From the NCBI RefSeq assembly GCF_947258575.1, contig NZ_CAMYIV010000009.1, positions 124,001 to 188,000 on the forward strand: a stretch of DNA of 64,000 bases, read 5' to 3'. The position numbers were made by a program, and so were the translations under genes. Source of the DNA: an uncultured Alcanivorax sp. GTDB lineage: Bacteria > Pseudomonadota > Gammaproteobacteria > Pseudomonadales > Alcanivoracaceae. This document shows, one piece after another, positions 1,612 to 50,175 of the stretch. The notes beneath the pieces were generated by a model. The model had not been told where the DNA came from. It ran no database searches and saw only the letters and a program-made list of their open reading frames with translations. Within the stretch, counting starts at the first letter, position 1. Each line of letters starts with the position of its first letter.

Positions 1612-1768
1612 AGTAAATAGTTAATAGTGAACAGTTAACAGCTCGCGGCCGGGGCATGCACTATTTTTGAGCAAGCCGCCGCGCCCATAGCTTGTTCGCG
1701 ACGGAAAGGCTTGAAACACAGAAAACCTGCCCCGCGCGCTGTTAACTATTAACTGTTCACTGTTAACT
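1612..1768. repeat. Heptamer inverted-repeat element 1 (lptB-rpoN gap)
   Basis: The left arm at 1612-1639 consists of four 7-bp units of AGTTAAC type. The right arm at 1741-1768 consists of four units of the complementary GTTAACT type. A 101-bp GC-rich core without a credible gene separates them. The arms could pair to form a long stem. It is one of seven loci in the window that carry the same right arm. Confidence 0.9.
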
Positions 1769-1794
1769 ACCTTCCTCCTAGCACACAACCACCA

Positions 1795-1811
1795 TTGGCA
1801 CAAATATTGCT
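1795..1811 (+). promoter_or_regulatory. Sigma-54 (-24/-12) promoter for rpoN
   Basis: TGGCAC at 1796-1801, five bases, then TTGC at 1807-1810 is an exact match to the sigma-54 consensus with the correct GG-to-GC spacing. Transcription would start near 1822, about 47 bases before the rpoN ATG at 1869. It lies 27 bp after heptamer element 1. Sigma-54 promoters need an enhancer-binding activator, and no activator site was identified here. Confidence 0.65.
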
Positions 1812-1868
1812 TGCCTTATGCATAGGCTGTTATTCTCAGGTTTTGGGGATGACACCAGTCTGAGCAGT

Positions 1869-3335
1869 ATGAAGCCAAGCCTACAACTACAAATCGGCCA
1901 GCAGCTGACCATGACTCCGCAGCTGCAGCAGGCTATACGCCTCCTGCAGCTCTCCACGCTGGACCTGCGTCAAGAGATTCAGCAGGCCGTGGAAAGTAAT
2001 CCGTTGCTGGAGCTGGCCGATGATTTCGGTGACGAATCCCTGCCTGACGCTGACGAGGAACGTCAGGACGACCAGGAGCTGGATACCGAGCGTGACGATG
2101 CCCTGGAAGAGTTCGTGGATGACGAACCCGGCATCGAAACGGAATGGGACGATGTTTATTCCGGCCAGACCAGCAGCGCCTCCAGCGCCCTCCCCGACGA
2201 TGCCGACGACTGGCAGCAGCGCCATAGTGTGGCCGGCAATCTACAGGACCACCTGCTCTGGCAACTGAATCTGACCCCCATGAGCGATGTGGACCGCATT
2301 ATCGCCATGACCATCATCGAATCCCTGGACGATCGCGGCTACCTGACCGTCACCGTGGACGACATCGTGGCGATGATGAACGCCCAGGATGACCTGCTCA
2401 CCGAAGGTGACGAGCTGGAAGCCGATGAAGTCCTGGCTGTGCAGCACCGCCTGCAACAATTCGACCCGGTGGGAGTTGCCAGTCTGGATCTGGCCGACTG
2501 CCTGCGGGTGCAGCTGCGCCAACTGCCCACGGACACGCCCTTTCTGGACTATGCCCTGGCCCTGCTCGGGCATCTCGAGCTACTGGAAAAGCACGACTAC
2601 GCCGCCCTGCGCCGGGTACTGCAGATCAGCGAAGAAAACCTGCTGGACGCCCTCTCGCTGCTACGCACCCTGGACCCGGCTCCCGGCGAACAGATTGGGG
2701 AAAGCCAGGTGGATTACGCGGTGCCGGACGTGATCGTACGCCAGCACCAGGGGCGCTGGCAGGTCAGCCTGAACGAGGAGGTGCTGCCCAAGGTCAATTT
2801 GCAGCAGCAGTACGCCTCCATGGCCCGCAAGGCCGGTGGCGAGGATGGCCAGTACCTGCGCAACTGCGTGCAAGAAGCCAAGTGGTTCATCAAGAGCCTG
2901 CAAAGCCGCCACGACACCCTGCTGAAGGTGGCAACCCGCATCGTTGACGTTCAGCAGGACTTCTTCGACTATGGGGAAGAGGCCATGAAACCCCTGGTTC
3001 TGGCCGACATTGCCGACGCCGTCGAGATGCACGAATCGACCATCAGTCGGGTCACCAACCAGAAATACATGATGACACCCCGCGGCGTCTTTGAGTTGAA
3101 GTATTTCTTCTCCAGCCACGTGGGAACAGACGGCGGCGGTGAGTGTTCCTCCACCGCTATTCGTGCCATTATTAAGAAGCTGGTCGCTGCCGAGAATCCC
3201 CGCAAACCGCTCAGCGACAACAAGCTTGCAAGCTTGCTGAATGAGCAGGGAATCAATGTAGCGCGCCGGACAGTCGCCAAGTACCGTGAGGCGATGAGAA
3301 TACCGTCATCCAGCGCCCGCAAGCGTTTGGTGTAG
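1869..3335 (+). CDS. rpoN: RNA polymerase sigma-54 factor
   Basis: RpoN directs core RNA polymerase to -24/-12 promoters of nitrogen, motility and carbon-use genes. The 488-residue protein has the Gln/Leu-rich activator-binding region I at the N-terminus (MKPSLQLQIGQQL...). An acidic region II follows at about 55-115, then the core-binding domain, and the RpoN box ARRTVAKYRE lies close to the C-terminus. The in-frame ATG at 1818 was rejected because family proteins begin at MKPSLQL and because the sigma-54-type promoter would start transcription near 1822. Downstream hpf, ptsN, rapZ and ptsO form the conserved rpoN cluster. Confidence 0.97.
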   Translation: MKPSLQLQIGQQLTMTPQLQQAIRLLQLSTLDLRQEIQQAVESNPLLELADDFGDESLPDADEERQDDQELDTERDDALEEFVDDEPGIETEWDDVYSGQTSSASSALPDDADDWQQRHSVAGNLQDHLLWQLNLTPMSDVDRIIAMTIIESLDDRGYLTVTVDDIVAMMNAQDDLLTEGDELEADEVLAVQHRLQQFDPVGVASLDLADCLRVQLRQLPTDTPFLDYALALLGHLELLEKHDYAALRRVLQISEENLLDALSLLRTLDPAPGEQIGESQVDYAVPDVIVRQHQGRWQVSLNEEVLPKVNLQQQYASMARKAGGEDGQYLRNCVQEAKWFIKSLQSRHDTLLKVATRIVDVQQDFFDYGEEAMKPLVLADIADAVEMHESTISRVTNQKYMMTPRGVFELKYFFSSHVGTDGGGECSSTAIRAIIKKLVAAENPRKPLSDNKLASLLNEQGINVARRTVAKYREAMRIPSSSARKRLV

Positions 3336-3374
3336 GCGCCGGGACGGCCCAACGAGCAGGTAAAGGAGCCAGCC

Positions 3375-3677
3375 ATGCAAATTAATATCAGCGGTCATCA
3401 CCTGGAAATTACCGATGCTTTGCGAGCCTACGTAGGAGACAAATTCTCCCGTCTTGAACGGCATTTCGACCAGATTACCAGTGTCCAGGTGATCCTTTCC
3501 CCGGAACCCAAGACCCACAAGGCGGAATCCACTATCCATATTTCCGGGGCCGACGTCTTCGCCACCGCTGAAGCAGTCGACATGTACGCTGCCATCGACA
3601 AGCTGACGGACAAGCTCGACCGCCAGATCCTCAAACACAAGGAAAAGGCCGTCAGCCACAAGCACGGCGGCCACTGA
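3375..3677 (+). CDS. hpf: Ribosome hibernation promoting factor, short form
   Basis: HPF binds the 30S subunit near the decoding centre in stationary phase and, with RMF, promotes inactive 100S ribosomes. The 100-residue protein is a single HPF/RaiA beta-alpha-beta-beta-beta-alpha domain (MQINISGHHLEIT..., YAAIDKLTDKLDRQILKHKEK). It lacks the C-terminal dimerisation domain of long HPF, as expected for gammaproteobacteria. A strong ribosome-binding site AAAGGAG lies at 3362-3368. The gene follows rpoN by 39 bp and precedes ptsN by 16 bp, so it is probably co-transcribed. Confidence 0.95.
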   Translation: MQINISGHHLEITDALRAYVGDKFSRLERHFDQITSVQVILSPEPKTHKAESTIHISGADVFATAEAVDMYAAIDKLTDKLDRQILKHKEKAVSHKHGGH

Positions 3678-3693
3678 ACCCAAAGCGACAATT

Positions 3694-4167: not shown

Positions 4168-4264
4168 AGGAACGCAACACGCTTTCAGGCATCACCCGGG
4201 ACATCCCCTCGTCTATCCATTTTGCGTGCCAACGTGCTGCAAATAGCGTGCAAGCGGTGCAACC

Positions 4265-5116: not shown

Positions 5117-5124
5117 GCCACTCA

Positions 5125-5394: not shown

Positions 5395-5398
5395 AAAC

Positions 5399-5540
5399 AG
5401 TTAAAAGTTAACAGCGAATAGTGAACAGCTAAAAAATCAAGTACCACATGCCCCGAAGGGCTGTTACTGTTGGTTTATCCAAGTCCGAGCAGCAGCACAC
5501 ATTGTTCCCGCTGTTAACTATTCACTGTTAACTGTTAACT
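5399..5540. repeat. Heptamer inverted-repeat element 2 (ptsO-mgtE gap)
   Basis: The left arm at 5399-5433 has five units (AGTTAAA, AGTTAAC, AGCGAAT, AGTGAAC, AGCTAAA). The right arm at 5513-5540 has four GTTAACT-type units. The 79-bp core contains a small hairpin with a CGAA loop. The right arm ends nine bases before the mgtE start codon, so it occupies the place where a ribosome-binding site and leader would normally be. Confidence 0.9.
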
Positions 5541-9740: not shown

Positions 9741-9845
9741 CGTAGGGTGGATTAGCCTAAGCGTAATCCACCTTCGGTTTCACACATGGTGAGGGCAATG
9801 CGAGGAAAGCATGGTGGATTACGCCTGCGGCTAGTTCACCCTACG
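9741..9845. repeat. GTAGGGTG-type inverted-repeat element
   Basis: Two related hairpins face each other. At 9741-9772 GGTGGATTA pairs with TAATCCACC (9-bp stem), and a degenerate copy in opposite orientation occupies 9813-9845. The outer 17 bases are inverted with two mismatches (CGTAGGGTG ends). This resembles a REP-pair element. Similar GTAGGGTGGATTA sequences are widespread in proteobacterial intergenic DNA. Confidence 0.75.
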
Positions 9846-9870: not shown

Positions 9871-9898
9871 ATTAACTGTTAACTATTCACTGTTAACT
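9871..9898. repeat. Heptamer arm 3, overlapping the 3' end of the C13-peptidase gene
   Basis: Four RTTMACT units run from 9871 to 9898, preceded by the usual CGCT. No left arm is visible. On the minus strand the arm encodes the last residues (V-N-S-E) and the TAG stop of the MORN/C13 protein. Confidence 0.88.
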
Positions 9899-18573: not shown

Positions 18574-18697
18574 AGTTAATCGTTAACAGTGAATAGTTAA
18601 CAGCTAACACCCAACAGGTCAGGCGCGGCCACAGGACTCTGACGTTGTTCCGTCATCGGCTCGCGAACTGTTCACTGTTAACTATTCACTATTAACT
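18574..18697. repeat. Heptamer inverted-repeat element 4 (mreD-maf gap)
   Basis: The left arm at 18574-18608 has five AGTTAAC-type units (AGTTAAT, CGTTAAC, AGTGAAT, AGTTAAC, AGCTAAC). The right arm at 18670-18697 has four GTTAACT-type units, and the core is 61 bp. It fills almost the whole gap between the maf start and the mreD stop, and could attenuate read-through from mreBCD into maf. Confidence 0.9.
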
Positions 18698-27728: not shown

Positions 27729-27756
27729 GTTAACTATTCACTATTAACTGTTAACT
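27729..27756. repeat. Heptamer arm 5, overlapping the 3' end of prmC
   Basis: Four units, GTTAACT, ATTCACT, ATTAACT, GTTAACT, run from 27729 to 27756, preceded by CGCT and followed by GC. The arm is identical base for base to arm 6 at 39293. On the minus strand it encodes the last residues and stop codon of prmC. Confidence 0.9.
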
Positions 27757-35538: not shown

Positions 35539-35546
35539 ATCAGCGG

Positions 35547-35694
35547 CAAGCATCAAGCTACAAGCTTCAACACGACATGAATTGTTGCCAGATTGAAGCC
35601 CCTGAGGCCGCGCACAGCTCCTGTGCGCGGCCTCTTTCATTCTAGGCCACCCCAATCCCAAACCGTGTTGCAGCTTGTAGCTTGTGGCTTGAAG
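35547..35694. repeat. AGCTTGT-type heptamer inverted-repeat element around the prs terminator
   Basis: The left arm at 35547-35567 has three units (CAAGCAT, CAAGCTA, CAAGCTT). The right arm at 35672-35692 has three complementary units (AGCTTGT twice, then GGCTTGA). The core of about 104 bp contains the prs terminator. The architecture is the same as the GTTAACT elements, but the heptamer is different. Confidence 0.8.
35604..35637 (+). terminator. Intrinsic terminator of prs
   Basis: GAGGCCGCGCACAG at 35604-35617 pairs perfectly with CTGTGCGCGGCCTC at 35621-35634. The loop is three bases and TTT follows. It separates prs from rplY-pth. Confidence 0.85.
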
Positions 35695-35819
35695 CCCTTT
35701 CCGCTGGCACGCAGCGCCTTTTTCCTGCATAATCGCGCCCCCGCGGAATCCTCCGTGGCTTATCAACCTCTCTGGCCGACCTGGTCGCGGGACGCCCGAG
35801 AGCTTAATGGAGACATATC

Positions 35820-36475: not shown

Positions 36476-37069
36476 GTGGCTGTAGCGGAACCGGTTCGAC
36501 TGATCGTAGGCTTGGGTAATCCGGGCCGCGAATACGAGGACACCCGCCACAATGCCGGCGTCTGGTATGTGGACGCCCTGGCTCGTCGCCAGGGCGTTTT
36601 CCTTTCTGAAGACAAGAAATATTTCGGCCTTACCGGCACCTTTACCTTCGAAGGCGAAACGATTCGTCTGCTGGTTCCCACTACCTTCATGAACCGCAGT
36701 GGTCAGGCCACCGCCGCTCTGGCGAATTTCTTCAAGATTCCTGTCACGCAGATGCTCGTCGCCCATGACGAACTCGACCTGCCCCCCGGTTGTGCCCGCT
36801 TCAAACAAGGCGGCGGCCATGGCGGCCATAACGGTCTGCGCGACATCATCAGCAAGCATGGCAACAGCCGCGACTTCTACCGGCTACGCATCGGCATCGG
36901 CCACCCCGGCTCCGCCGACCGCGTCACCCCCCATGTCCTCAACAAACCCTCCCAGGCCGACCGTGACCTGATCGACCGCGCCATTGATGAAGCGGCTTAC
37001 CACACCGCCGATATGCTGCGCGGGGATTTGAACGGGGCGATGAATCGGCTGAACGGGTTTAAAGCCTGA
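36476..37069 (+). CDS. pth: Peptidyl-tRNA hydrolase
   Basis: Pth recycles tRNA by hydrolysing peptidyl-tRNA dropped from ribosomes. The 197-residue protein has the N-terminal family motif [19 protein letters not shown] with catalytic H25, the [12 protein letters not shown] region, and [10 protein letters not shown] with the essential aspartate. The start is GTG, eight bases after rplY. In Pseudomonas ychF follows directly. Here heptamer repeats and a GST gene on the other strand are placed between. Confidence 0.96.
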
Positions 37070-37073
37070 CGGT

Positions 37074-37108
37074 AGCTTCTAGCTTCTAGCTTCTAGCTTC
37101 TAGCTTGC
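37074..37108. repeat. AGCTTCT tandem heptamer array (5 units)
   Basis: Four perfect AGCTTCT units (37074-37101) and one AGCTTGC (37102-37108) begin four bases after the pth stop codon. There is no gene in it. Confidence 0.92.
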
Positions 37109-37162
37109 AGGATTGTGCCCCAGCTAAAACGAAGCCCAGCCGCAATATCAGCTTTTCTTTTT

Positions 37163-37211
37163 CTCGTAGCTCGTAGCTCGTAGCTCGTAGCTCGTAGCTC
37201 GTAGCTCGTAG
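37163..37211. repeat. CTCGTAG tandem heptamer array (7 perfect units)
   Basis: Seven identical CTCGTAG units span 37163-37211 and end eight bases before the stop codon of the GST gene on the opposite strand. Perfect copies imply recent expansion, so copy number may vary between strains. It shares the AGCT core of the array 55 bp to its left. Confidence 0.93.
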
Positions 37212-37218
37212 CTGATTA

Positions 37219-37959
37219 TTATCTATCCTGCGCGTACCTCGCCAACAGCCACTCCCCCGCCGGCCGGGCTCGCCATTTTTCGATCTGCTTGCGCAATGCC
37301 GGTGACAACGTGGTTTCATCGAACAGATCCCAGGGCGAGCCCTCCGGGCTGAGCAGTGGCGCCAGCATACTGGCGGCTGTGATGTCTGCGAGGCTGAAGC
37401 GGTCACCCACCAGATACTGCCCCTTGCCTTTCTTCAGCTCGCTCTCCAGGAGCGCCAAGGCCTCTTCCACCCGCTGCTCCGAGCGCATCACCCGTTGCGG
37501 GTTGATAGCGTAACCTCGACGTATTGCTTCGCGAACCAGCGGTTTCGCCAGCCGTTCCAGGGGAGAAGGCAGGCCGCAATCGCCCACCAGGGCCGTCATT
37601 ACCTCCGGTCGATCAAGAATCTGACCGTACACCCAGCGCCGTACATGCACGCCGTAACGATCAAACTGCTGCTCCAGTTCAATGACCCGGGCTCGCGCAT
37701 CACCGGCCTTGGGCAACAGCGACGGATCGGGGTAGTACTTTTCCAGGTAATAGGCGATTTTGGTGGAATCGCTCACCCGACGCCTGCCGTCGCGCAGCAA
37801 CGGCACGGTATTGCCACGGGCCAGCCACTGGGTACGCACCCGATGCGCCACCGGCAGCAAATTGACCGTACGGTATGCCAGACCCTTGTGGTCCAGCTGC
37901 CAGCGGGATTTCTCGCAATAATGGGAGATGGGGAACTGGTAAAGAATACGCTCGGCCAT
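37219..37959 (-). CDS. Glutathione S-transferase family protein
   Basis: The 246-residue protein has a thioredoxin-like N-terminal GST domain (about 3-80: LYQFPISHYCEKSRWQLDHKGLAYRTVNLLP, VPLLRDGRRRVSDSTKIAYYLEKYYP). An all-helical C-terminal domain follows (about 90-240), with the N-capping motif GDRFSLADITAASML. The CEKSRW segment places a cysteine where many bacterial GSTs carry the catalytic residue. It sits on the minus strand between pth and ychF, which are normally neighbours, and its 3' end abuts the CTCGTAG array. Substrate is unknown. Confidence 0.88.
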   Translation of the reverse strand: MAERILYQFPISHYCEKSRWQLDHKGLAYRTVNLLPVAHRVRTQWLARGNTVPLLRDGRRRVSDSTKIAYYLEKYYPDPSLLPKAGDARARVIELEQQFDRYGVHVRRWVYGQILDRPEVMTALVGDCGLPSPLERLAKPLVREAIRRGYAINPQRVMRSEQRVEEALALLESELKKGKGQYLVGDRFSLADITAASMLAPLLSPEGSPWDLFDETTLSPALRKQIEKWRARPAGEWLLARYAQDR

Positions 37960-39235: not shown

Positions 39236-39248
39236 GCGCCCCCGGAAT

Positions 39249-39283
39249 AAAAAAAGCCGCACCCTCCCAGGCGCGGCTTTTTT
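39249..39283. terminator. Intrinsic terminator between ychF and cysE
   Basis: AAAAAGCCGC (39251-39260) pairs with GCGGCTTTTT (39273-39282), with a 12-base loop. A- and T-runs on both sides let it serve the converging genes ychF and cysE. Confidence 0.85.
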
Positions 39284-39292
39284 GTTTCCGCT

Positions 39293-39320
39293 GTTAACTA
39301 TTCACTATTAACTGTTAACT
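39293..39320. repeat. Heptamer arm 6 beside cysE
   Basis: Four units (GTTAACT, ATTCACT, ATTAACT, GTTAACT) preceded by CGCT and followed by GC; identical to arm 5. It lies between the ychF terminator and the cysE stop, at the junction of the second and third syntenic blocks. Confidence 0.9.
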
Positions 39321-39325
39321 GCTTT

Positions 39326-40093: not shown

Positions 40094-40142
40094 AGATACC
40101 TCGTCTCAGGTATAGCCGGTTGGATAACACGGGGAGCGTTTG

Positions 40143-40916: not shown

Positions 40917-41027
40917 GAGAGGTACCTGTACACGGGTCTGGCCGGAAAAGGCGGCAATGTTATCATGGGAATCACTGAATAATCCCTTAAGTGGCGCCTA
41001 ACGCTGCCCTGATCGCGCAGGCTCTGC

Positions 41028-41033
41028 TACAAT
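41028..41033 (+). promoter_or_regulatory. Candidate -10 box for suhB
   Basis: TACAAT at 41028-41033 matches the sigma-70 -10 consensus at five of six bases. The corresponding -35 region is weak (CTGCCC-like). Transcription would start about 60 bases before the suhB ATG. Confidence 0.35.
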
Positions 41034-41098
41034 CCGCGCCCCGGTTTATTTGGCCGGGCGTTCTTTGACAGCCCTAATACTTTTTTGAGGACAGATGC

Positions 41099-41917
41099 AT
41101 GCATGCGCCGCAAGTGAATATTGCCCTGCGAGCCGCCCGTCAGGCGGGTAACCTGATTCGTCGTGCTGCCGAAAGCAATGACCCGTTATCTGTCAGCAAG
41201 AAAGGGATGAACGACTTCGTCACCGAAGTGGATCGGGCCGCCGAACAACGCATCATCGAGGTGATCCTCAAGGCCTACCCGGATCACAGCATCCTGGCCG
41301 AAGAATCCGGCGAAACCCGCGGCAAGGGTGACGGGGCCGAATATCAGTGGGTGATCGACCCGCTGGATGGCACCACCAACTTTATCCACGGCTTCCCGCA
41401 GTACTGCGTCTCCATCGCCCTGAAATACCGGGGCAAGCTGGAGCACGCGGTGATTTATGACCCCAATCGGGATGAAGAATTTACCGCCAGCCGCGGCCGT
41501 GGCGCCGCCCTCAACGGTCGCCGTATCCGCTGCACCAACCGCCCCGGCCTGGAAGGCTGCCTGATCGGCACCGGCTTCCCGTTCCGCAAGGACCAGGCGC
41601 CGCACATGGACGCCTACCTGGGCATGTTTGCCGACATCGCTGCTGCCACCGCTGGCCTGCGCCGCCCGGGCTCTGCTGCGCTGGATCTGGCCTGGCTGGC
41701 CGCCGGCCGCCTGGACGGGTTCTTCGAATTCGGCCTGTCCGAGTGGGACCTGGCCGCCGGCGCCCTGCTGATCACCGAAGCCGGTGGCCTGGTAGGCGAC
41801 CTGAGCGGTGGCCACAAATTCCTGGAAAGCGGCGGCATCGTCGCCGGCAGCCCGAAAGTCTTCAAGGGCCTGCTGCAGAAGATCAAACCGCACCTGAACG
41901 AGAGTTTGCGTCGGTAG
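41099..41917 (+). CDS. suhB: Inositol-1-monophosphatase family protein SuhB
   Basis: SuhB dephosphorylates inositol monophosphate in vitro and in E. coli also joins the rRNA antitermination complex with NusA. The 272-residue protein has the family metal site motifs: EVDRAAEQRI, ILAEESGE, WVIDPLDGTTNFIHGFP (about 80-96) and the C-terminal GLSEWDLAAGALLITEAGG. The start ATG 41099 lies in an ATGCATGCATGC stretch with GAGGA upstream; the ATG four bases earlier is out of frame. A REPIN-like element follows the stop. Confidence 0.95.
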   Translation: MHAPQVNIALRAARQAGNLIRRAAESNDPLSVSKKGMNDFVTEVDRAAEQRIIEVILKAYPDHSILAEESGETRGKGDGAEYQWVIDPLDGTTNFIHGFPQYCVSIALKYRGKLEHAVIYDPNRDEEFTASRGRGAALNGRRIRCTNRPGLEGCLIGTGFPFRKDQAPHMDAYLGMFADIAAATAGLRRPGSAALDLAWLAAGRLDGFFEFGLSEWDLAAGALLITEAGGLVGDLSGGHKFLESGGIVAGSPKVFKGLLQKIKPHLNESLRR

Positions 41918-41938
41918 ATCCTCTACTCTCACGCCTCT

Positions 41939-42084
41939 GTAGGAGCGCCGCTTGAGGCGCGAATAGGCAAAAATCCGAGGCGAGTACCGAGAAGCGAGTC
42001 GCGAAAGGCGATACGTACTTCGGTTTTGATTTTCGTTACTCGCTTCTCGCTTCGTATCATTCGCGTCTCAAGCGGCGCCCCTAC
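41939..42084. repeat. REPIN-like inverted repeat A (suhB-aldehyde dehydrogenase gap)
   Basis: Two 26-bp REP-like ends, 41939-41964 and 42059-42084, are inverted with two mismatches. They begin GTAGGAG or GTAGGGG and end CGAAT. Inside, a 12-bp perfect inverted repeat (CGAGAAGCGAGT at 41988-41999 and its complement at 42038-42049) gives a second stem. Each end folds on itself around a CTTG loop. The remaining 142 bases of the 309-bp gap hold only the presumed leader of the next gene. Confidence 0.85.
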
Positions 42085-42226
42085 GGCGAGATTGTTACCC
42101 TTCCACGCCAACCCCTCCCATCTTTTCCTTAGACCCCGAACCGATTTTTCTCTTCCGGCATGGACATCTGCCCTTGCTTTGCTAGCGTAATACGCAACAC
42201 GGTGCAAAAAGCTCGGGAGATGTACG

Positions 42227-43681
42227 ATGACGGTTACCCTCACTGACAACGCCCTGTTTCGCCAGCAGTGCTATATCAATGGCCACTGGTGCGATGCGGA
42301 TGACGGCGCCACCTTCACCGTGAGCAACCCGGCCACTGATGAAAGCCTGGGCACCTCGCCGCGAATGGGCGAAGCAGAAACCCGCCAGGCCATCGATGCC
42401 GCCCACGGGGCTTTTCCTGCCTGGCGGGATATGGCCGCCGCGCAACGGGCCGTTTTGCTGGAGGCCTGGCACGACCTGATGATGGAACACCAGGACGACC
42501 TGGGGCGACTGATGACCCTGGAGCAGGGCAAGCCCCTGGCCGAGGCAAAAGGCGAAATCGCCTATGCCGCCTCTTTCCTGAAGTGGTTTGCCGAGGAGGC
42601 ACGGCGCGCCTACGGCGATACCATTCCTGCCCCCAAGCCAGGCCAGCGGATTGTGGTGATCAAGCAGCCCATCGGCGTCACCGCCGCCATCACTCCATGG
42701 AACTTTCCCTCCTCCATGATCACCCGCAAGGCCGGGGCAGCTCTGGCAGCCGGCTGCACCATGGTGGTGAAACCCGCCAGTGCCACCCCCTACTCCGCCC
42801 TGGCCCTGGCCGAGCTGGCCGAGCGCGCGGGCATTCCCGCTGGCGTGTTCAATGTAATTACCGGCAGCGCGGGGGCCATTTCCGCGGCGCTCACCGACTC
42901 GCCGATTCTTCGCAAGCTGAGCTTTACCGGGTCCACGGAAGTGGGCTCCAAGCTGATGGCCCAGTGCGCCAAGCACATCCAGAAAGTGTCCCTGGAGCTG
43001 GGCGGCAACGCGCCCTTTATCGTGTTTGACGATGCCAACCTGGACAAGGCCGTGGAAGGCGCCATGGCCAGCAAGTTCCGCAATACCGGTCAGACCTGCG
43101 TGTGCGTTAATCGCTTCCTGGTTCAGGACAGCATTCACGACGCTTTCGTGGAAAAGCTGAAAACCGCCATTGAGGCCATGAAAGTCGGTGATGGTCTGGA
43201 AGACGGCGTCAGCCAGGCGGCCCTGATCAACCGCGATGCCGCCGACAAGGTCATGGAGCATCTGGAAGATGCCCTGGGCAAGGGCGCCAAAGTGGTTACC
43301 GGCGGTCAACGTCATCAGCGGGGTGGCAACTTCGTGCAGCCCACCCTGATCACCGGCGTGACCACCGATGCGCAGCTCTGCCAGGAAGAAACCTTTGGCC
43401 CGCTGGCCGCTGTGATTCCATTCCGCACGGAAGAGGAGGCCATTCGCATTGCCAACGACACCCCCTACGGCCTGGCTGCCTATTTCTACAGCGACAACAT
43501 CCACCGCTGCTGGCGCGTGGCAGAAGCCCTGGAAAGCGGCATGGTGGGCGTTAACGAAGGGCTGATCTCCAACGCTGCCGCGCCCTTCGGCGGGGTCAAG
43601 GAATCCGGCCTGGGTCGTGAGGGCTCCCACCAGGGCATGGACGAGTACCTGGAAGACAAGTACCTGTGTATGGGTAGCTAA
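42227..43681 (+). CDS. NAD(P)-dependent aldehyde dehydrogenase, succinate-semialdehyde dehydrogenase type
   Basis: The 484-residue protein is a full-length aldehyde dehydrogenase of the GabD/SSADH group. It has cofactor motif TPWNFPSSMITRK, FTGSTEVG, catalytic E257 (LELGGNAPF) and nucleophile C291 (GQTCVCVNR). The CVC pair at 291-293 is typical of bacterial succinate-semialdehyde dehydrogenases. With the class III aminotransferase three steps downstream it could oxidise an omega-semialdehyde to a dicarboxylate; the exact substrate is inferred. It is the first gene of a six-gene plus-strand cluster inserted between suhB and secF. Confidence 0.88.
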   Translation: MTVTLTDNALFRQQCYINGHWCDADDGATFTVSNPATDESLGTSPRMGEAETRQAIDAAHGAFPAWRDMAAAQRAVLLEAWHDLMMEHQDDLGRLMTLEQGKPLAEAKGEIAYAASFLKWFAEEARRAYGDTIPAPKPGQRIVVIKQPIGVTAAITPWNFPSSMITRKAGAALAAGCTMVVKPASATPYSALALAELAERAGIPAGVFNVITGSAGAISAALTDSPILRKLSFTGSTEVGSKLMAQCAKHIQKVSLELGGNAPFIVFDDANLDKAVEGAMASKFRNTGQTCVCVNRFLVQDSIHDAFVEKLKTAIEAMKVGDGLEDGVSQAALINRDAADKVMEHLEDALGKGAKVVTGGQRHQRGGNFVQPTLITGVTTDAQLCQEETFGPLAAVIPFRTEEEAIRIANDTPYGLAAYFYSDNIHRCWRVAEALESGMVGVNEGLISNAAAPFGGVKESGLGREGSHQGMDEYLEDKYLCMGS

Positions 43682-43854
43682 CGACAGCTTCACGAGACAG
43701 GCTGCACGCTGAATGCTGACGCATTGCTTGCAGTAACCGGAGCGCTTCTTTTGCGCACACAGGCTTGCATCGCGGGCACACATTGCCGCCACTGCCAAGA
43801 CACAGCCTGCGTTGCAGCGTGGAGAAAGTGACCTGCAGCTGATTAGGAGGCGGA

Positions 43855-44994
43855 ATGGGACAAGCGTTGAACATCGCCCTGCTCCCCGGTGACGGCATCG
43901 GCCCGGAAGTCATGGACGTGGCGGAGGCAGTGCTGGACCTGCTGATCCAGCGCTACCGGCTGCCGTTGGAGCATACCCGCTTTGACTGGCCGTCCCACGC
44001 CTGGCATCAGAGTCATGGAGAGATGATGCCCAGCGACGGGGTCGCACAGCTACGCGAATTTGATGCCATGCTGCTGGGCGCTCTGGGCGACCCGGGGCCG
44101 CTGGAAGACCCTTCCCGTTTTGTCCTTTCCGACAGTGTCTCGCTGGCACCATTGCTGGCCCTGCGCAAACAGCTGGACCTGTGGGCTTGCGAACGCCCGG
44201 CCCGCTGGCTACCCGGCTCGCCCCAGTATCTTGCCGACCCGCGCGCCCGGGAAGTGGACATGCTGGTGATCCGCGAAAACAGTGAAGGGGAATACAGCGG
44301 CCAGGGGGGGCGGCTCGCCCCGGGCACGGCACAGGAGGTGGCCACCCAGGTAGAAGTGTTCACCGCCCGCGCCACCGAACGGCTGATTCGCCACGCTTTC
44401 CAGCGGGCCCGTCAACGGGCCACCCAGCGGGAAATGCCGCGCCAGTTCAAAGACGACAAGCACGCCCAGGTGTGCCTGATCACCAAGCGCAACGCCCAGC
44501 CCTTCTGGGGCGACCTTTATACGGACACCTTTCACCGCATCGCCGCCGAGTTTCCCGATGTGGACATCCATCACGAGCTGGTGGATGCCGCCTGCATGAA
44601 GTTCGTGCAGTGCCCCTGGCGCTTCGACGTCGTCGTCGCCAGCAATCTGCACGGCGATATTCTTACTGACCTGGCGGCGGTGCTGTGTGGCGGGCCGGGA
44701 CTGGCGCCATCCGCCAACCTGAACCCGAATGAACCGGCCCTGCCGGCTCTGTTCGAACCCGTTCACGGCAGCGCTCCGGATATTGCCGGCCAGAACCTGG
44801 CCGACCCCCGCGCTACCCTGATGAGCTTGGCCATGCTGCTGGACAATCTGGCCCACCATCACCCGGCCATCGGCAGCGCGGCACAACATCTGCATGACCT
44901 TATCCAGGCAGACTTGGCTCGAGAGGCGGACGGTGAAGCCTTTTCGGGTACCCGGGAAACCGGACAACGGCTATGCCAGTGGCTGGCAGCCTGA
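43855..44994 (+). CDS. Isocitrate/isopropylmalate-family dehydrogenase (tartrate or D-malate type)
   Basis: The 379-residue protein belongs to the beta-decarboxylating dehydrogenase family, with GDGIGPEV at the N-terminus, RENSEGEYSGQGG, the lysine motif TKRNAQPFWG and the metal-site segment ASNLHGDILTDLAA. The RENSEGEYSG form and length fit tartrate/D-malate dehydrogenases better than leucine-pathway LeuB. It would oxidise and decarboxylate a 2-hydroxyacid with NAD. The ribosome-binding site AGGAGG is strong. The 173-bp gap before it contains loose GCTGNNN heptamers (43701-43721) and no gene. Confidence 0.82.
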   Translation: MGQALNIALLPGDGIGPEVMDVAEAVLDLLIQRYRLPLEHTRFDWPSHAWHQSHGEMMPSDGVAQLREFDAMLLGALGDPGPLEDPSRFVLSDSVSLAPLLALRKQLDLWACERPARWLPGSPQYLADPRAREVDMLVIRENSEGEYSGQGGRLAPGTAQEVATQVEVFTARATERLIRHAFQRARQRATQREMPRQFKDDKHAQVCLITKRNAQPFWGDLYTDTFHRIAAEFPDVDIHHELVDAACMKFVQCPWRFDVVVASNLHGDILTDLAAVLCGGPGLAPSANLNPNEPALPALFEPVHGSAPDIAGQNLADPRATLMSLAMLLDNLAHHHPAIGSAAQHLHDLIQADLAREADGEAFSGTRETGQRLCQWLAA

Positions 44995-45031
44995 AGCGGC
45001 GCTGGCAAGCCAACAACAGAAAGGAGGCACT

Positions 45032-46318
45032 ATGAGTCACCTGTCCCCCCTGCTGGTGCAATCCAGCGGTATTTGTGCAGAGCGCGGCGAAGGAAACTGG
45101 CTCTACGACCAGGAAGGTAACCGCTGGCTGGATTTCACCTCCGGTATCGGCGTGACCTCCACCGGACATTGCCACCCCAAAGTGGTGGCCGCCGCTCAGG
45201 AGCAGGTCGCCAAACTGGTGCACGCGCAATATGCCACCGTCAAACATCCCAACCTGCTTGAACTGACTGACCGGCTCTACAAGCATCTACCCGCACATAT
45301 GGATGCTATCGCGTTTTCCAATTCCGGCAGTGAATCCGTGGAAGCGGCATTTCGCCTGGCACGCCAGGCTACCGGTCGCCCCAACATTGTGGTGTTTCGG
45401 GGCGGCTTCCATGGCAGAACCATGGGGGCGGCCTCGCTGACTACCTCCAACAACAAGGTGCGCACCGGCTGGGCACCACTGATGGCGGGCGTGTCGGTGG
45501 CTCCCTTCCCGCATTCCTACCGCTATGGCTGGGACGAAGACACCACAGTGGACTTCTGCCTGGAAGAACTCGACCACGTGATGATTACCGAGTGCAATCC
45601 CAAGGACACTGCGGCCATCATCATCGAGCCGGTTCAGGGTGAATATGGCTACTACCCGGCGCCGAAACGCTTCATGGAAGGCCTGCAGGCACGCTGCAAG
45701 GAACACGGCATCCTGCTGATTGTGGACGAAATCCAGGCCGGCTACGGGCGTACCGGCAAGTTCTGGAGCCACGAACACAGCGGGGTATCCGGCGACATCC
45801 TGATTACCGCCAAGGGGCTGGCCAGTGGTTATCCGCTGTCTGCCATCGCTGCCAGCAAGTCACTCATGGACAAGGGCTACCCCGGCTCCCAGGGCGGCAC
45901 TTACGGCGCCAATGCGGTTGCCTGTGCCGCAGCCATCGCCACCCTGGACGTGATCGAAGAAGAAGGGCTGGTAGAGCACGCCCGTGTAATGGGTGACTAC
46001 CTACTGGAAAAACTCGTTGCCGTTCAACAGGATTTCCCCTGCATCGAAGAGATACGCGGCCAGGGCCTCATGCTCGGCGCCGAGATCACCAGCTCACCGG
46101 GCGTTGCGGATGGCGACCACGCGGCTGCCATACTCAAGGCCTGCGAGGACGATGGTGTCCTGCTGCTTCGCTGTGGTCACAAGGGCCAGGTGGTGCGCTG
46201 GCTTCCTGCACTGAATGTGACCCGCGAGGAAATCGATATTGCCGTGGGCGCCTTCGCCAAGGCGCTGGCCAGCACGTGCAATAATCAGGATAAACGCTGC
46301 CCAGGCTGCAAAAGCTGA
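45032..46318 (+). CDS. Class III PLP-dependent aminotransferase (GabT-like)
   Basis: The 428-residue protein is a class III aminotransferase: GSESVEAAFRLARQATGR, the FHGRTMGAASLT motif, IIIEPVQGEYGYYPAP, VDEIQAGYGRTGKFW with the PLP-nitrogen aspartate D232, and the Schiff-base lysine K261 (ITAKGLASGYPLSA). Family members transfer omega-amino groups (4-aminobutyrate, beta-alanine, 5-aminovalerate). The start at 45032 has AAGGAGG and follows the dehydrogenase by 37 bp. A longer reading from 44894 runs inside that gene and was rejected. The product semialdehyde could feed the dehydrogenase at 42227-43681. Confidence 0.88.
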   Translation: MSHLSPLLVQSSGICAERGEGNWLYDQEGNRWLDFTSGIGVTSTGHCHPKVVAAAQEQVAKLVHAQYATVKHPNLLELTDRLYKHLPAHMDAIAFSNSGSESVEAAFRLARQATGRPNIVVFRGGFHGRTMGAASLTTSNNKVRTGWAPLMAGVSVAPFPHSYRYGWDEDTTVDFCLEELDHVMITECNPKDTAAIIIEPVQGEYGYYPAPKRFMEGLQARCKEHGILLIVDEIQAGYGRTGKFWSHEHSGVSGDILITAKGLASGYPLSAIAASKSLMDKGYPGSQGGTYGANAVACAAAIATLDVIEEEGLVEHARVMGDYLLEKLVAVQQDFPCIEEIRGQGLMLGAEITSSPGVADGDHAAAILKACEDDGVLLLRCGHKGQVVRWLPALNVTREEIDIAVGAFAKALASTCNNQDKRCPGCKS

Positions 46319-46353
46319 AATCGAAAACCACCGGAAAGTGAAAGAGTCACATT

Positions 46354-47325
46354 ATGAGCAAACCGGTAATTACGGTACTGATGGCCGAGGATGAGCCCAC
46401 CATGCCCGGGCTTGAAGCCCTTGAGGGGCAAGCGGTGGTTCGCGAGGCCCGGCATCGGGGGGAGCTGGAAGCGGCACTTCCGGAAACGGAAATCCTGTTG
46501 GTGACGGATTTTCGCACCGACATGCTGCAGGAAGTCTGGCCCGATCCCTGCAAAATACGCTGGATACATGCCACCAGTGCGGGGGTGGATGCTCTGATGA
46601 TTCCACCGGTGCGTGACAGCGATATTCCTGTCACCAATGCCAGGGGTATCTTTGACCGCGGTATTGCCGAATATGTACTCGGCGCCCTGCTACTGTTTGC
46701 CAAAGACACGCTCACCAACCTGTCTTTGATGAAGGAGCATCGCTGGCAACATCGGGAAACCCACCTGCTGCGAGGCAGCCGGGCTTTGGTTGTGGGAGCC
46801 GGCTCCATTGGCCGGGAGGTGGCAACCGTACTGGGTGCCATGGGCGTCAGTGTGGTGGGCACCGCCCGCAACGCCCGTGAGGATGCGGCTTTCGAGCGGG
46901 TTCATGCCCAACAGGAGCTGCCTGATCTTCTCCCGGAAGCAGACTACGTCATCATCACGGCACCCCTGACACCGCAGACCGAAGGGCTGTTCGACGCCGA
47001 CCAGTTCCTGCGCATGAAGCCTGGCGCGGTATTGGTCAATGTGGGGCGCGGCCCGATCGTGGAAACATCGGCGCTGCTTGCCGCCTTGCAAAGCGGACGC
47101 CTGGGCGGGGTCGCTCTGGACGTATTCGAAGAAGAACCCCTGCACGCCAACCACCCTCTCTGGGATGAACCCAACGCCATGTTATCCGCCCATATGGCCG
47201 GTGACTTTATTGGCTGGCGCGCTGCGCTGGGGCAGCAATTTGTTGATAACTTTCAACGCTGGCAAAAGGGAGAGCCCCTGAAAAACCCGGTCAGCAAGGA
47301 ACACGGCTATGTCAGTAATGCCTGA
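46354..47325 (+). CDS. D-2-hydroxyacid dehydrogenase family protein
   Basis: The 323-residue protein has the D-isomer-specific 2-hydroxyacid dehydrogenase layout: N-terminal catalytic domain, Rossmann motif VVGAGSIG (146-153) and the catalytic residues R232 (NVGRGPIVE), E261 (DVFEEEP) and H280 (SAHMAG). After the second beta strand the sequence GTARNARE has arginines rather than the usual acidic residue, which suggests NADP(H). It would interconvert a 2-oxoacid and a D-2-hydroxyacid, possibly the substrate of the dehydrogenase at 43855-44994. It lies 35 bp after the class III aminotransferase. Confidence 0.85.
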   Translation: MSKPVITVLMAEDEPTMPGLEALEGQAVVREARHRGELEAALPETEILLVTDFRTDMLQEVWPDPCKIRWIHATSAGVDALMIPPVRDSDIPVTNARGIFDRGIAEYVLGALLLFAKDTLTNLSLMKEHRWQHRETHLLRGSRALVVGAGSIGREVATVLGAMGVSVVGTARNAREDAAFERVHAQQELPDLLPEADYVIITAPLTPQTEGLFDADQFLRMKPGAVLVNVGRGPIVETSALLAALQSGRLGGVALDVFEEEPLHANHPLWDEPNAMLSAHMAGDFIGWRAALGQQFVDNFQRWQKGEPLKNPVSKEHGYVSNA

Positions 47326-47405
47326 GGCACGAGCCTGACGACGGCCACCAGCAGCATACTGCGCAGAGCAAGAGAGGATATTCGCGTCAACCAGGAGTGA
47401 TGTCG

Positions 47406-48812
47406 ATGAGCAAGGAACTACTGACCATGAGCGCCCAGGCGCTGAAAACCGCCTACCACACCGGCGCCTTATCCCCAGTGGAGGTTTGCTCCAACCTGTT
47501 GGACCATATCGAAAAGCATGATCAGGCGCTGAATGCATGGTGCCTGATTGACCGCGACACCACCCTGCAATGGGCGCGGGAATCAGAACAACGCTATCAG
47601 CAAGGTACATCAGAAGGGTTGCTGGATGGCGTGCCTGTGGCAGTCAAGGATGTCTTCCTCACCCCCATGTGGCCGACACTGAAAGGCTCAAAAACCATTG
47701 ATCCGGCCTCTACGCTGAACAAGCGCTCCCCGGCGGTAGCCGCGCTGGAACGCCATGGTTATGTCCCTCTGGGCAAGACCACGACGCCTGAATTCGGCTG
47801 GAAAGGGATTACCGATAGCCCCCTGTGCGGGCCCACCAACAACCCCTGGGATCCATCTAAAACCGCCGGGGGGAGTAGTGGCGGCAGTTCCGCCGCGGTT
47901 TCCGCAGGCATGGCCCCACTGGCTCTCGGCACCGATGCCGGCGGCTCCATCCGCATACCCGCCAGCTTCTGTGGCATCGTCGGCCACAAACCGACCTTCA
48001 GTGAAGTCCCTCACTGGCCCGCAAGCCCTTTCGGCACGCTCGCCCACGCTGGCCCCATGACGCGCTCGGTAGCGGATGCGGCATTGATGATGAACGTGAT
48101 GTGCGAAGCCGATGCCCGAGATAGCCTGGCCGCGCCCCGCCGTCATATCGATTATCTGGCGGCACTGGACCAACCCATGAAGGGGCTGAAAATCGCCATG
48201 AGCACCAACCTGGGTTATGTGGATGTGGATCCGGATATCGAGAAAGCGTTCCAGGATGCCGCCAAGGTATTCGAAGATCTGGGCGCAATCATCACCGAGG
48301 CCGATCCCGGATTCAGCAACCCGCTGGCCGCGTTCAGCCACCTATTCTATAGCGGTGCGGCCAATGCCATGCGTGATCTCGGTGAGCGCCAACGTAGCCT
48401 CATGGACCCGGCGCTGATTGAAGTCGCTACCAAGGCCGAGAAACTCTCCATGCTGGATTATCTGGGCGCCATGAACGAGCGAATGGCGGTCAGTGAACGC
48501 ATGGCGGTCTTCCACACCAAATACGATCTGCTGATCACCCCGACGCTGCCCCTGGGGGCGTTCGACACCAACCGCGAAGTGCCGGTGGACTGGCCCAGCA
48601 CCCGCTGGCCCACCTGGACCCCGTTTACCTATCCGTTCAACCTTACCGGCCAGCCTGCACTGTCAGTACCCATGGGGCTGGACAGCAACGGTTTGCCCAT
48701 GGGGCTGCAGATTGTGGGTGCGCGTTTCGATGATGCCCGGGTCCTGGCCGCCGGCCACGCCTTCGAGCAAGCCAAGCCGTTTACCGTGTTGCCACCGTTG
48801 CTGCAAAACTAA
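47406..48812 (+). CDS. Amidase-signature family hydrolase
   Basis: The 468-residue amidase has the complete Lys-cisSer-Ser triad: K81 (VAVKDVFLT), S157 (TAGGSSGG) and S181 (TDAGGSIRIPA). It is paralogous to GatA in this window but lacks GatB/GatC partners and is clearly a metabolic amidase of unknown substrate. I chose ATG 47406 because AGGAG lies eight bases upstream; GTG 47397 and ATG 47400 are in frame. It is embedded in the aminotransferase/dehydrogenase cluster, so release of ammonia or an amino acid from an amide substrate is the natural inference. Confidence 0.85.
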   Translation: MSKELLTMSAQALKTAYHTGALSPVEVCSNLLDHIEKHDQALNAWCLIDRDTTLQWARESEQRYQQGTSEGLLDGVPVAVKDVFLTPMWPTLKGSKTIDPASTLNKRSPAVAALERHGYVPLGKTTTPEFGWKGITDSPLCGPTNNPWDPSKTAGGSSGGSSAAVSAGMAPLALGTDAGGSIRIPASFCGIVGHKPTFSEVPHWPASPFGTLAHAGPMTRSVADAALMMNVMCEADARDSLAAPRRHIDYLAALDQPMKGLKIAMSTNLGYVDVDPDIEKAFQDAAKVFEDLGAIITEADPGFSNPLAAFSHLFYSGAANAMRDLGERQRSLMDPALIEVATKAEKLSMLDYLGAMNERMAVSERMAVFHTKYDLLITPTLPLGAFDTNREVPVDWPSTRWPTWTPFTYPFNLTGQPALSVPMGLDSNGLPMGLQIVGARFDDARVLAAGHAFEQAKPFTVLPPLLQN

Positions 48813-48877
48813 AAAAGGTCTTTGCGAGGGGCATAGTCGACGCCTCTACAGAGCAGCGAATCAAAGAGAAGGAGCAC

Positions 48878-50086
48878 ATGATGGGCAATATCAATCTGGA
48901 TACGGATTTCTACGAAAGCGAAGACCCGATCTGGAATCCGGCGCTGCTCACCATTCCCGTGCCTGGCATTCGCCGCATGGTGAATCTGGCGTCGGACCTG
49001 GATAACGTGATTCACCTTTCCATTGGCCAGCCGGACTTCAAGCCACCTGACCATGTCATCCAGGCCGCCGTGGACGCCCTGAACGCGGGGCAGACCGGCT
49101 ACACCATGGACGCGGGTCTACCGGAACTGCTCGAAGCCCTGGCCGAATACTACAGCCACCGATACCAACGCCCCTTGGTGCCGGAAAACCTGATGATCAC
49201 CACTGGCGCCACGGAGGCAATCTACCTGGCGCTCACGGCCACTTCCGCACCCGGGCGGGAGTTCATCGTCCCCGACCCGTCGTTCATGCTTTACGGCCCC
49301 CTGATCCGCATGAATGGCGGCACTGTAAAGAGTATTGCCACCCGCGCAGAGAACAATCACCAACTGGACCCCCAGGAAGTGATTGATGCCATGGGGCCAA
49401 ATACCTTTGCTGTGGTACTCAACTCCCCCAGCAACCCCACCGGGACCATCTATCCACGGGAGACCATCGAAGCCATCGTGGAAGAAGCGGCCTACCGGGG
49501 CATTCATGTGATCAGTGACGAGGTCTATGACCACCTGATCTATGATGGTCGGGATTACCCCAGCGTACTGTCATGCTGCTCGGACCTGGACCATGTCATG
49601 GTCATCAGCAGTTTCTCGAAAACGTTTTCCATGGCCGGCATGCGCATTGGCTGGCTGATCGGCAGCCAGGGCGCCATCAAGAAGCTGCGGCGCTACCACA
49701 TGTTCACCACCACCGTGGCCAACACTCCCTGTCAGTGGGCCGGGGTCGCCGCCCTGCGCGGCAGCAATGATTTCATTGACAGCATGGTGTCGGAATACCA
49801 GCACCGCCGGGACCGGCTGGTGGAACTGGTGGGCCAGACCCCACACCTGACCGGCTACCGACCGGACGGTGCGTTCTACCTGTTCCCCTCCCTGCCGGAC
49901 GGCGTGGATGGCGCCAACGTGGCCCTGAAGCTGCTACGTGAAACCGGCGTCTGTACCATCCCCGGCGACACCTTCGGCGAAGCCGGCAAAAACGCCCTGC
50001 GCATCAGCTATTCCACCTCCCTGGACCAGATCGAAGAAGCTTTCGAACGCATCATCCCATGGATGAAAAAACAAAATTTCGGGTAA
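48878..50086 (+). CDS. Class I/II PLP-dependent aminotransferase (aspartate/aromatic type)
   Basis: The 402-residue protein has the fold-type I aminotransferase motifs: LSIGQPDFKPP, TTGATEAIYLAL, NSPSNPTGT, ISDEVYDHLIYDG, Schiff-base lysine K248 (SSFSKTFSMAGMRIGW) and the substrate-binding arginine near the C-terminus (NALRISYS). These enzymes move an alpha-amino group to 2-oxoglutarate or pyruvate. The start has AAGGAG upstream. It is the last gene of the inserted cluster and is followed by a 13-bp perfect terminator and heptamer arm 7. Confidence 0.86.
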   Translation: MMGNINLDTDFYESEDPIWNPALLTIPVPGIRRMVNLASDLDNVIHLSIGQPDFKPPDHVIQAAVDALNAGQTGYTMDAGLPELLEALAEYYSHRYQRPLVPENLMITTGATEAIYLALTATSAPGREFIVPDPSFMLYGPLIRMNGGTVKSIATRAENNHQLDPQEVIDAMGPNTFAVVLNSPSNPTGTIYPRETIEAIVEEAAYRGIHVISDEVYDHLIYDGRDYPSVLSCCSDLDHVMVISSFSKTFSMAGMRIGWLIGSQGAIKKLRRYHMFTTTVANTPCQWAGVAALRGSNDFIDSMVSEYQHRRDRLVELVGQTPHLTGYRPDGAFYLFPSLPDGVDGANVALKLLRETGVCTIPGDTFGEAGKNALRISYSTSLDQIEEAFERIIPWMKKQNFG

Positions 50087-50109
50087 TAAAACACCAAAAC
50101 GCCAGACAC

Positions 50110-50138
50110 AAAAAAGCCGCGAAAATCGCGGCTTTTTT
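50110..50138. terminator. Bidirectional terminator at the end of the metabolic cluster
   Basis: AAAAAAGCCGCGA (50110-50122) pairs perfectly with TCGCGGCTTTTTT (50126-50138) around AAA. It can stop transcription of the cluster and of secF from the other side. Confidence 0.9.
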
Positions 50139-50147
50139 GGTTTAGCT

Positions 50148-50175
50148 ATTAACTATTAATTGTTAACTATTCACT
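50148..50175. repeat. Heptamer arm 7 beside secF
   Basis: Four units (ATTAACT, ATTAATT, GTTAACT, ATTCACT) lie between the terminator and the secF stop codon. No left arm is seen. The layout is the same as arm 6: terminator, then arm, then the 3' end of a minus-strand gene. Confidence 0.85.

Follow-up and report, generated by a model that had tools for sequence, protein, structure and literature searches.

The stretch of DNA analysed here, called the window below, is 64,000 nucleotides long (contig NZ_CAMYIV010000009.1, positions 124,001 to 188,000, of the uncultured Alcanivorax sp. assembly GCF_947258575.1). Its intergenic gaps carry short arrays of 7-bp units with the consensus RTTMACT, called arms, which often stand as inverted pairs around a core. 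The genome holding the window is labelled G000, and other genomes and loci have labels such as G001 or begin with L, A or B. The anatomy of the paired element, its placement at gene ends, its usual four units, the covariation of its hairpin, the change of its heptamer word (flavour) and its inversion are established by sequence comparison. With at most three mismatches, the pattern of three RTTMACT units has 30 overlapping matches in the window, whereas 100 dinucleotide shuffles give 0.00 on average. In the 3.5-Mb genome the exact pattern matches 255 times, overlaps counted, and the reversed control pattern 0 times.

The first-pass annotation of the window had listed seven right arms of exactly four units, three of them facing an inverted left arm. 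All seven have four units, but exactness fails at 50148, where one unit reads ATTAATT; the other six are exact. The three left arms were confirmed at 1612-1639, 5399-5426 and 18574-18608, with cores of 101, 86 and 61 bp. The tetramer CGCT, described as preceding nearly every arm, is present at five of the seven (18670 has AACT and 50148 has AGCT). The features are listed below.

1612..1639, + strand: left heptamer arm in AGTKAAY sense, 3 of 4 units exact, 5 bp past the stop codon of the + strand gene ending at 1606
1640..1740, no strand: core of 101 bp with CGCG by both arms and a diverged central hairpin
1741..1768, - strand: right heptamer arm, 4 exact RTTMACT units
5399..5426, + strand: left heptamer arm, 2 of 4 units exact, 4 bp past a stop codon
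5427..5512, no strand: core of 86 bp, of another type, kept at this gap in G005, G010 and G007
5513..5540, - strand: right heptamer arm, 4 exact units, all letters the same in G000, G005, G010 and G007
9871..9898, - strand: single arm, 4 exact RTTMACT units; the called open reading frame (ORF) of the - strand gene stops 16 nt into the arm
18574..18608, + strand: left arm of five units, 3 of 5 exact
18609..18669, no strand: core of 61 bp, of another type
18670..18697, - strand: right arm, 4 exact units, 6 bp past the stop codon of the - strand gene
27729..27756, - strand: single arm, 4 exact RTTMACT units; the called ORF of the - strand gene stops 23 nt into the arm
35541..35699, no strand: inverted pair of AAGCTNC-type arms with a GAGGCCGCG hairpin core, core-model match with E 1.7e-6
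37067..37221, no strand: heptamer arrays TAGCTTC and CTCGTAG at opposite ends of one convergent gap
39243..39290, no strand: inverted repeat AAAAAAAGCCGC...GCGGCTTTTTT, terminator-like by eye, absent from the terminator-scan list
39293..39320, - strand: single arm, 4 exact RTTMACT units, 5 bp past the stop codon of the - strand gene and ahead of the inverted repeat
50109..50139, no strand: perfect inverted repeat with an A-run and a T-run, terminator-like by eye, absent from the terminator-scan list
50148..50175, - strand: single arm, one of 4 units deviating (see above), 5 bp past the stop codon of the - strand gene

The RTTMACT family is real, but it reaches beyond this word: a letter-blind period-7 scan also found other heptamers in the window (35542/35664 and 37067/37157). 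An Rfam scan of the window returned two tRNAs and nothing else. About 25 bp from the arm at 9871 lies an inverted repeat, CGTAGGGTGGATTAGCC...GGCTAGTTCACCCTACG (window 9741-9845), with matches of about 72-91% in several genomes.

A common hairpin core with exchangeable arms

Across the genome of this marine bacterium the arms stand as inverted pairs with a spacing of about 105 bp, which encloses a GC hairpin that shows compensatory changes, and the whole palindromic element of about 160 bases is found in many gaps at gene ends. The cores had been called unrelated, which holds among the three in the window, but most pairs elsewhere share a common core with CGCG by each arm and a central GAGGCCGCGYCC hairpin. 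The general plan is an inward AGTKAAY arm, AG, CGCG within a few bases, about 20 bases of low consensus and the hairpin AACGCAAGAGGCCGCGYCCA/TGGRCGCGGCCTCTTGCGTT, followed by the mirror image. Of the window cores, the one at 1640-1740 belongs to this type in a diverged form (covariance-model E 9e-5), and those at 5427 and 18609 gave no core-model match. In 464 kb of G000 the core model detected 15 core sites, some of which belonged to its training set. Two of them are in the window, at 1640-1743 with RTTMACT arms and at 35567-35672 with AAGCTNC arms.

For the core alignment, 51 of 70 cores were used, with near-duplicates and hairpin-less cores excluded, and a 21-bp stem was defined from a single sequence. 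This stem is 87% paired over the 51 cores, with 62 two-sided cells compared with 30.6 +/- 4.4 after shuffling and 24-33 after sliding, and its covariation score exceeds those of all 500 shuffles. The RNA fold of one element with matching arms reaches -98.7 kcal/mol (z -14.5). Across loci of one genome, identity is 0.84-0.88 in the arms (a figure inflated because the elements were chosen by arm pattern), 0.29-0.33 in the adjoining 20 bases and 0.68-0.81 in the hairpin halves. A longer form was seen in the G007 gap orthologous to G000:C2:232845-233000 (L114-L123), where 469 bp hold RTTMACT-type arms, two GAGGCCGCG hairpins and, inside the arms, a small reading frame that by eye looks like a short membrane protein.

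The heptamer changes while core type and period stay. When 228 G000 gaps were set against those of relatives, a period-7 array was present in at least one genome at 31 of them. For example, the gap of window 1612-1768 carries RTTMACT in G000 and G005, RTCMACT in G002 and G010, RTTMAYT in G009 and G007 and a TTNAACT-like word in G006, and is decayed in G013. The common hairpin core is also paired with AAGCTNC and AAAGTTN arms. The three-unit RTTMACT pattern has between 0 and 368 overlapping matches in 17 congeneric genomes, and the core model has matches in 17 of 17 (42 to at least 150 each, both strands counted), even in G015 and G004, where three-unit RTTMACT matches are absent. In four low-RTTMACT genomes, 40 high-scoring core sites were chosen by core score, and 35 of them are flanked on one or both sides by a period-7 array (19 of 20 in G001, 9 of 10 in G013, 7 of 8 in G004 and 0 of 2 in G015). 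By eye, these arms are of RTTMAYT type in 16 of 19 cases in G001 and 8 of 9 in G013, and of RTCMAYT type in 6 of 7 in G004. The 28-mer AATTAAT-AGTTAAT-AATGAAT-AATTAAT is frequent at unrelated loci of G001 and G013, and RTCMACT arms, most numerous in G010 (66 overlapping matches) and then G012 (38), keep a near-fixed order of units.

Of 390 genomes sampled from the order, 12 contain four consecutive RTTMACT units. Five of these belong to the same genus and four to a single further genus in the family; the other three lie elsewhere, with one array each among the matches listed. The named hits, which cover 80 of 97 stretches, belong to Alcanivorax, Alloalcanivorax and Alcanivoracaceae, with three exceptions among the matches listed (one Rivularia, one Calothrix and one uncultured bacterium). 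The contigs of these exceptions (L160, a Rivularia metagenome-assembled genome (MAG); L194, a Calothrix MAG; and L180, the uncultured bacterium) each hold several arrays of different words, some as inverted pairs by eye. Three consecutive AAGCTNC units occur in 5 of the 145 genomes examined from the order, one of which is G000.

Placement at gene ends, period and unit number

The placement was read with a purpose-made simple gene caller for 71 arms of at least three units, orthologues included. In 56 of 71 arms a gene end lies on the outer side, and 55 of these 56 are at -28 to +10 bp from the stop codon. Stop codons are overlapped by 27 of the 56, therefore the called frame terminates within the array, and 28 of the remaining 29 are within 10 bp. 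As a random control, 9% of 806 positions are within 10 bp (gaps of at least 60 bp, no gene overlap possible). The start-facing arms (15 of 71, six in that range, all 7 or 9 bp off) lead us to regard the pair as the unit. Counted for G000 only, the arms with a gene end on the outer side are 22 of 29, at -23 to +12 bp in every case. Arrays are present in 53 of 164 convergent gaps, 66 of 1032 tandem gaps and 1 of 160 divergent gaps. Two arrays are present in 26 of the convergent gaps, and in 20 of these both arrays are no more than 20 bp from both stop codons.

Some single arms, namely those at 39293 and 50148 and those of the viral-collection loci L233 and L235 (one shared context), sit between a stop codon and a T-run hairpin; the frame upstream of the L233/L235 arm is presumably glmS. 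The left and right sense arms of all ARTKRAY-type elements (75 of 75) close two or three reading frames. All-frame stop codons were rejected as a general rule, as example arms of the AAGCTNC, CGAGT and CACGC types close no frame.

Nearly all intergenic tandem arrays have a period of seven. Nine genomes, 1.62 Mb in all, were scanned with a threshold of 16 of 21 self-matches. The scan found 173 period-7 arrays, compared with 3 after block shuffling, 0-2 arrays at each of the periods 2, 4, 5, 8, 10, 11 and 13, and 83 arrays at period 14, which is twice 7. All 41 period-7 arrays in 464 kb of G000 lie between genes, and coding sequence holds 41 of the 44 arrays of period 3, 6, 9, 12 or 15 there; in the letter-blind scan, 40 of 42 period-7 arrays are intergenic.

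The least biased unit count comes from cores located without use of the arms. ARTKRAY arms flank 12 of the 15 core sites in G000 (the other 3 have other heptamers), and of these 24 arms, 21 have four units, one has three and two have two. At 40 core sites of G001, G013, G004 and G015, the 80 arm positions comprise 41 with four units, 15 with three, 10 with two, 10 with one, 3 with five and 1 with none, which indicates that shortening is common there and lengthening rare; shorter arms and broader unit numbers are common in G001 and G013. The fixed unit number claimed by the first-pass annotation therefore fits G000 (21 of 24), but elsewhere 36 of 80 positions have fewer than four. In the set of 71 arms from nine genomes, which was restricted to arms with three or more units, four units are present in 61, three in 5 and five in 5.

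Identical adjacent units are rare (10 of 137 compared with 29% expected; 8 compared with 19.5 +/- 2.6 in 36 perfect arms), and this avoidance is the opposite of slippage. The traits of slippage microsatellites, that is, a broad unit number and frequent identical neighbours, are not what we find. Slippage does occur, as orthologues with 2, 4 or about 25 units and losses to two units demonstrate. Expanded arms include 11 pure GTTCACT units at G000:C5:303388-303464 (L037) and about 25 AAGCTAC units in G005 gap B120. On these sequence comparisons, a fixed length and usual count together with a shifting word set the cassette apart from ordinary slippage repeats. The view of the first-pass annotation that the arrays are organised, not random microsatellites, is upheld by the usual four units, the inward polarity, the structured core and the near absence of intergenic arrays of other periods. 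Its own criterion for slippage repeats was that every orthologous gap carries the elements, that their unit number varies freely and that the core lacks structure. The elements are indeed often at the same orthologous gaps, yet the count in G000 is mostly four and the core is structured.

Turnover of the elements and possible explanations

At five loci, all distinct by their flanks, the whole element is inverted between species. Inversion A1 separates G002 from G010, and B29 separates G000 and G002 from G005. Three later cases were obtained from six flagged pairs among 32 conserved-core pairs, two of the six being ambiguous. The clearest is L248 against L247 and L249, with a core identity of 0.95 compared with 0.74 in the other orientation. 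L298 against L319 (0.85 and 0.70) and L181 against L195 (0.82 and 0.71) are less sharp because the core itself is palindromic. Arm flavour is kept in 15 of 16 conserved-core pairs read (of the 32), the exception having an ambiguous core. In gap B157 of G005 the two arms around a conserved core differ, one being RTTMACT and the other RTTMAYT. The similarity of cores kept in place often equals or exceeds that of the coding flanks, though cores of different loci are unrelated; in orthologues such as L081/L112, L097/L108 and L149/L255, cores are 98-100% identical and flanks about 90%. Overall, array-bearing gaps are less conserved than array-free tandem or divergent gaps.

The explanation we favour, at a probability of about 0.42, is that the paired element is a short non-coding palindromic 3'-end cassette with recognised heptamer ends and turnover at the level of the unit. 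We infer mobility, terminator action and a reading factor: it is probably a non-autonomous 3'-end or terminator cassette whose arms are read by a putative factor. Two inverted arms, typically of 4 x 7 bp, would flank a core of about 105 bp, and its strong GC hairpin is a probable two-way transcription terminator between convergent genes. The arms may be recognised unit ends with a putative protein bound along 7-bp steps, and the flavours may be subfamilies of differing specificity. A unit end would be placed a few bp past the stop codon, or across it so that the array closes the reading frame. Turnover would proceed by whole-unit replacement and by inversion without target-site duplication, foldback-like or like miniature inverted-repeat transposable elements (MITEs) and unlike slippage. 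We favour such a unit for three reasons: pairs also occur in tandem gaps with a start-facing arm, inversion and replacement affect whole units, and the recurrent parts are the hairpin and the arms. Terminal inverted repeats, as expected of MITEs, are present.

Several results weigh against this cassette. For mobility, exact direct repeats at the borders of 75 elements (matched offsets 0-8, lengths 2-6, 8 and 9) show no excess over shuffled flanks, and no transposase-bearing long version was noticed in the loci read, where no systematic search was made; the signs of a mobile element suggested for follow-up by the first-pass annotation were thus not found. Outside the hairpin, elements that share a flavour but stand at different loci have unrelated cores, which is unexpected for recent copies of one master. 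The absence of target-site duplications, the hypothetical status of an autonomous partner and these unrelated cores keep our confidence below one half. Convergent gaps have median conservation of 0.60-0.64 when array-free and 0.64-0.81 when array-bearing (few cases), therefore turnover is not special to arrays. For terminator action, a strong T-run is lacking at the common hairpin (mean 5.6 T in 14 nt). Terminators scanned for over 38800-50400 were not in excess (9 compared with 11.1 in shuffled sequence), and the scan did not list the hairpins by 39293 and 50148, perhaps because the T-run pairs with the A-run. For the stem, pairs with any two-sided change number 10 compared with 8.1 +/- 1.1, and 57 of 500 shuffles are equally high. 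Several flavours are found in a single genome, which is hard to explain with one binding protein. Pairing between the arms was rejected as a conserved feature, since left and right R/M letters are uncorrelated in three sets of elements: permutations at least as good numbered 1577 of 2000 for 18 G000 elements, 505 for 4 elements of G004 and 311 for 32 elements from the loci of the RTTMACT hits listed, though the letters are correlated in 9 G001 elements (12 of 2000).

A possible though doubtful alternative is a non-mobile binding array under selection, in which the arm is a 28-nt site in the 3' untranslated region or DNA for a cold-shock-type, Hfq-like or nucleoid protein by the stop codon, and flavours follow protein specificity. 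The stop-codon placement, the usual count of four, the avoidance of identical neighbours, the single arms between stop codon and terminator-like hairpin and the lack of target-site duplication all suit this idea, as does the report that CspB binds heptamer repeats with one protein per heptamer (PMC4679880). It accounts less well for tandem-gap pairs with one start-facing arm, for several unrelated heptamers per genome and for a flavour that usually changes together with the core. Alternatively, the arms might be a functionless mutational product, built and homogenised by 7-nt polymerase slippage (an idea of Mrazek, as cited in PMC4692102 and PMC4679880) and hairpin template switching. The expanded pure arrays, unit loss in orthologues, shorter arms in G001 and G013, inversions that fit hairpin-mediated strand switching and very different heptamers with one period could all arise in this way. 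We consider it unlikely in view of the G000 peak at four units, the depleted identical neighbours, the stop-codon placement and the constant arm positions across loci with a near-random adjoining core (where selection by arm pattern inflates arm identity).

The remaining proposals are far less probable. Species-typical flavours recall DNA uptake sequences (DUS), with arms as transformation tags, and Neisseria DUS also stand as inverted pairs at terminators (PMC3630211). This is very unlikely here, where a genome has at most hundreds of overlapping matches against thousands of DUS (PMC3630211), hardly any arrays lie in genes, arms are 28 bp long and several flavours share a genome. Membership in the REPIN/RAYT family is just as improbable. 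RAYT-type (Y1_Tnp) genes are present in 16 of 17 genomes, and in the RAYT-less G015 neither core site read has a period-7 array; however, the 51-core alignment has no conserved GTAG/CGTC tag columns, G004 has RAYT genes yet zero RTTMACT matches, four RAYT loci of about 3.3 kb contain no heptamer array, and GTAGGAGC repeats occur separately. G-quadruplex formation, as considered for the Xanthomonas GGGAATC repeats, matches the count of four and the placement (PMC4692102) and has next to no chance, since RTTMACT and RTTMAYT arms lack a G-tract on either strand and the G-quadruplex reason for four cannot apply. A telomere-like reverse-transcriptase origin of the heptamers was also rejected (RVT_1 in 6 of 17 genomes, none in high-copy G005, G008 and G011).

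Other repeats were observed in the same genomes. In gaps A36, B33, B35 and B132 (G002/G005/G010), GTAGGAGC-type repeats stand in gaps that hold heptamer elements in relatives, and in some cases heptamer pairs are nested between the repeats. A different high-copy repeat of about 85-170 bp lies at L073:4897-5076 and 16224-16348 (G000:C2, about 184.9 and 196.2 kb). It has many copies of about 80-100% identity in G002, G005, G009 and G010 and the look of a REPIN-like family that spread recently.

Comparison with known repeat systems

The closest match is the heptameric GGGAATC array of Xanthomonas (Rehm et al. 2015; PMC4692102), which mostly has four units, lies near stop codons and forms 70 inverted pairs in one genome and 75 in another. 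The authors remark that a G-quadruplex needs at least four and do not settle the function. The Xanthomonas repeats and the Nostoc GGGGA(C/T)T repeats share with our elements the 7-bp unit, the usual four, intergenic location, convergent inverted pairs, sense-strand proximity to stop codons and presence mostly in the same gaps of relatives with sequence variation (PMC4692102). The corresponding traits in Alcanivorax are a mode of four, intergenic arrays, stop proximity, convergent pairs and the same gaps in relatives. Unlike the G-rich Xanthomonas and Nostoc repeats, discussed as G-quadruplex formers, RTTMACT and RTTMAYT contain no GG or CC, and the Alcanivorax arms flank a covarying hairpin core, with a heptamer that varies by locus and species on a constant core type and period; a central core is unmentioned in the portion available for the other repeats (PMC4692102). 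The first-pass annotation knew of no named family of this design; the GGGAATC repeats do have its outward design (PMC4692102), and what stays distinctive is an RTTMACT element that bears a core and no G-tract.

TAACTGA direct repeats of Beggiatoaceae, cyanobacteria and Bacteroidetes (MacGregor 2015; PMC4679880) are likewise intergenic heptamer arrays, of two to six units, with stops in all frames. They lie mostly just upstream of start codons, with a single inverted case in the genome described, in contrast to the paired gene-end arms of Alcanivorax (PMC4679880). REPINs and GTAG-tagged REPs are also short palindromic intergenic units in inverted pairs (PMC3733652, PMC3116915), but they consist of a tagged hairpin without heptamer arms (PMC3733652). 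DUS dialects, too, are species-typical variants of one motif with inverted pairs at terminators, but the motif is of 10-mer scale and has thousands of copies, genes included (PMC3630211). In open-licence literature (titles and abstract openings), we found no description of such elements in Alcanivorax or of a core that swaps heptamers.

Rivularia and Calothrix contigs bear RTTMACT arrays and, by eye, inverted heptamer pairs. This recalls the cyanobacterial STRR sequences, which are intergenic heptamers. Foldback transposons of Drosophila have inverted arms of tandem short subrepeats around variable middles; they are far longer and eukaryotic, and the comparison concerns the working principle only.

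A wider reading, which we hold to be rather unlikely, is that the heptamer arrays of Alcanivorax, Xanthomonas, cyanobacteria and Beggiatoaceae are one object: arms of 3'-end cassettes with period 7, about four units, a dialect heptamer, a putative trans-acting reader and turnover by unit inversion and replacement. The Alcanivorax elements turn a vague observation, that in many bacteria no long simple repeats are commoner than 7-mers (as cited in PMC4679880), into a defined object with testable rules, namely usually four units, inward polarity, gene-end placement, a covarying core and a swappable heptamer. For this genus, the G-quadruplex account of the count of four is removed, and the 17 congeneric genomes, with 0-368 matches each, offer a comparative system for correlating a reader factor with the arms.

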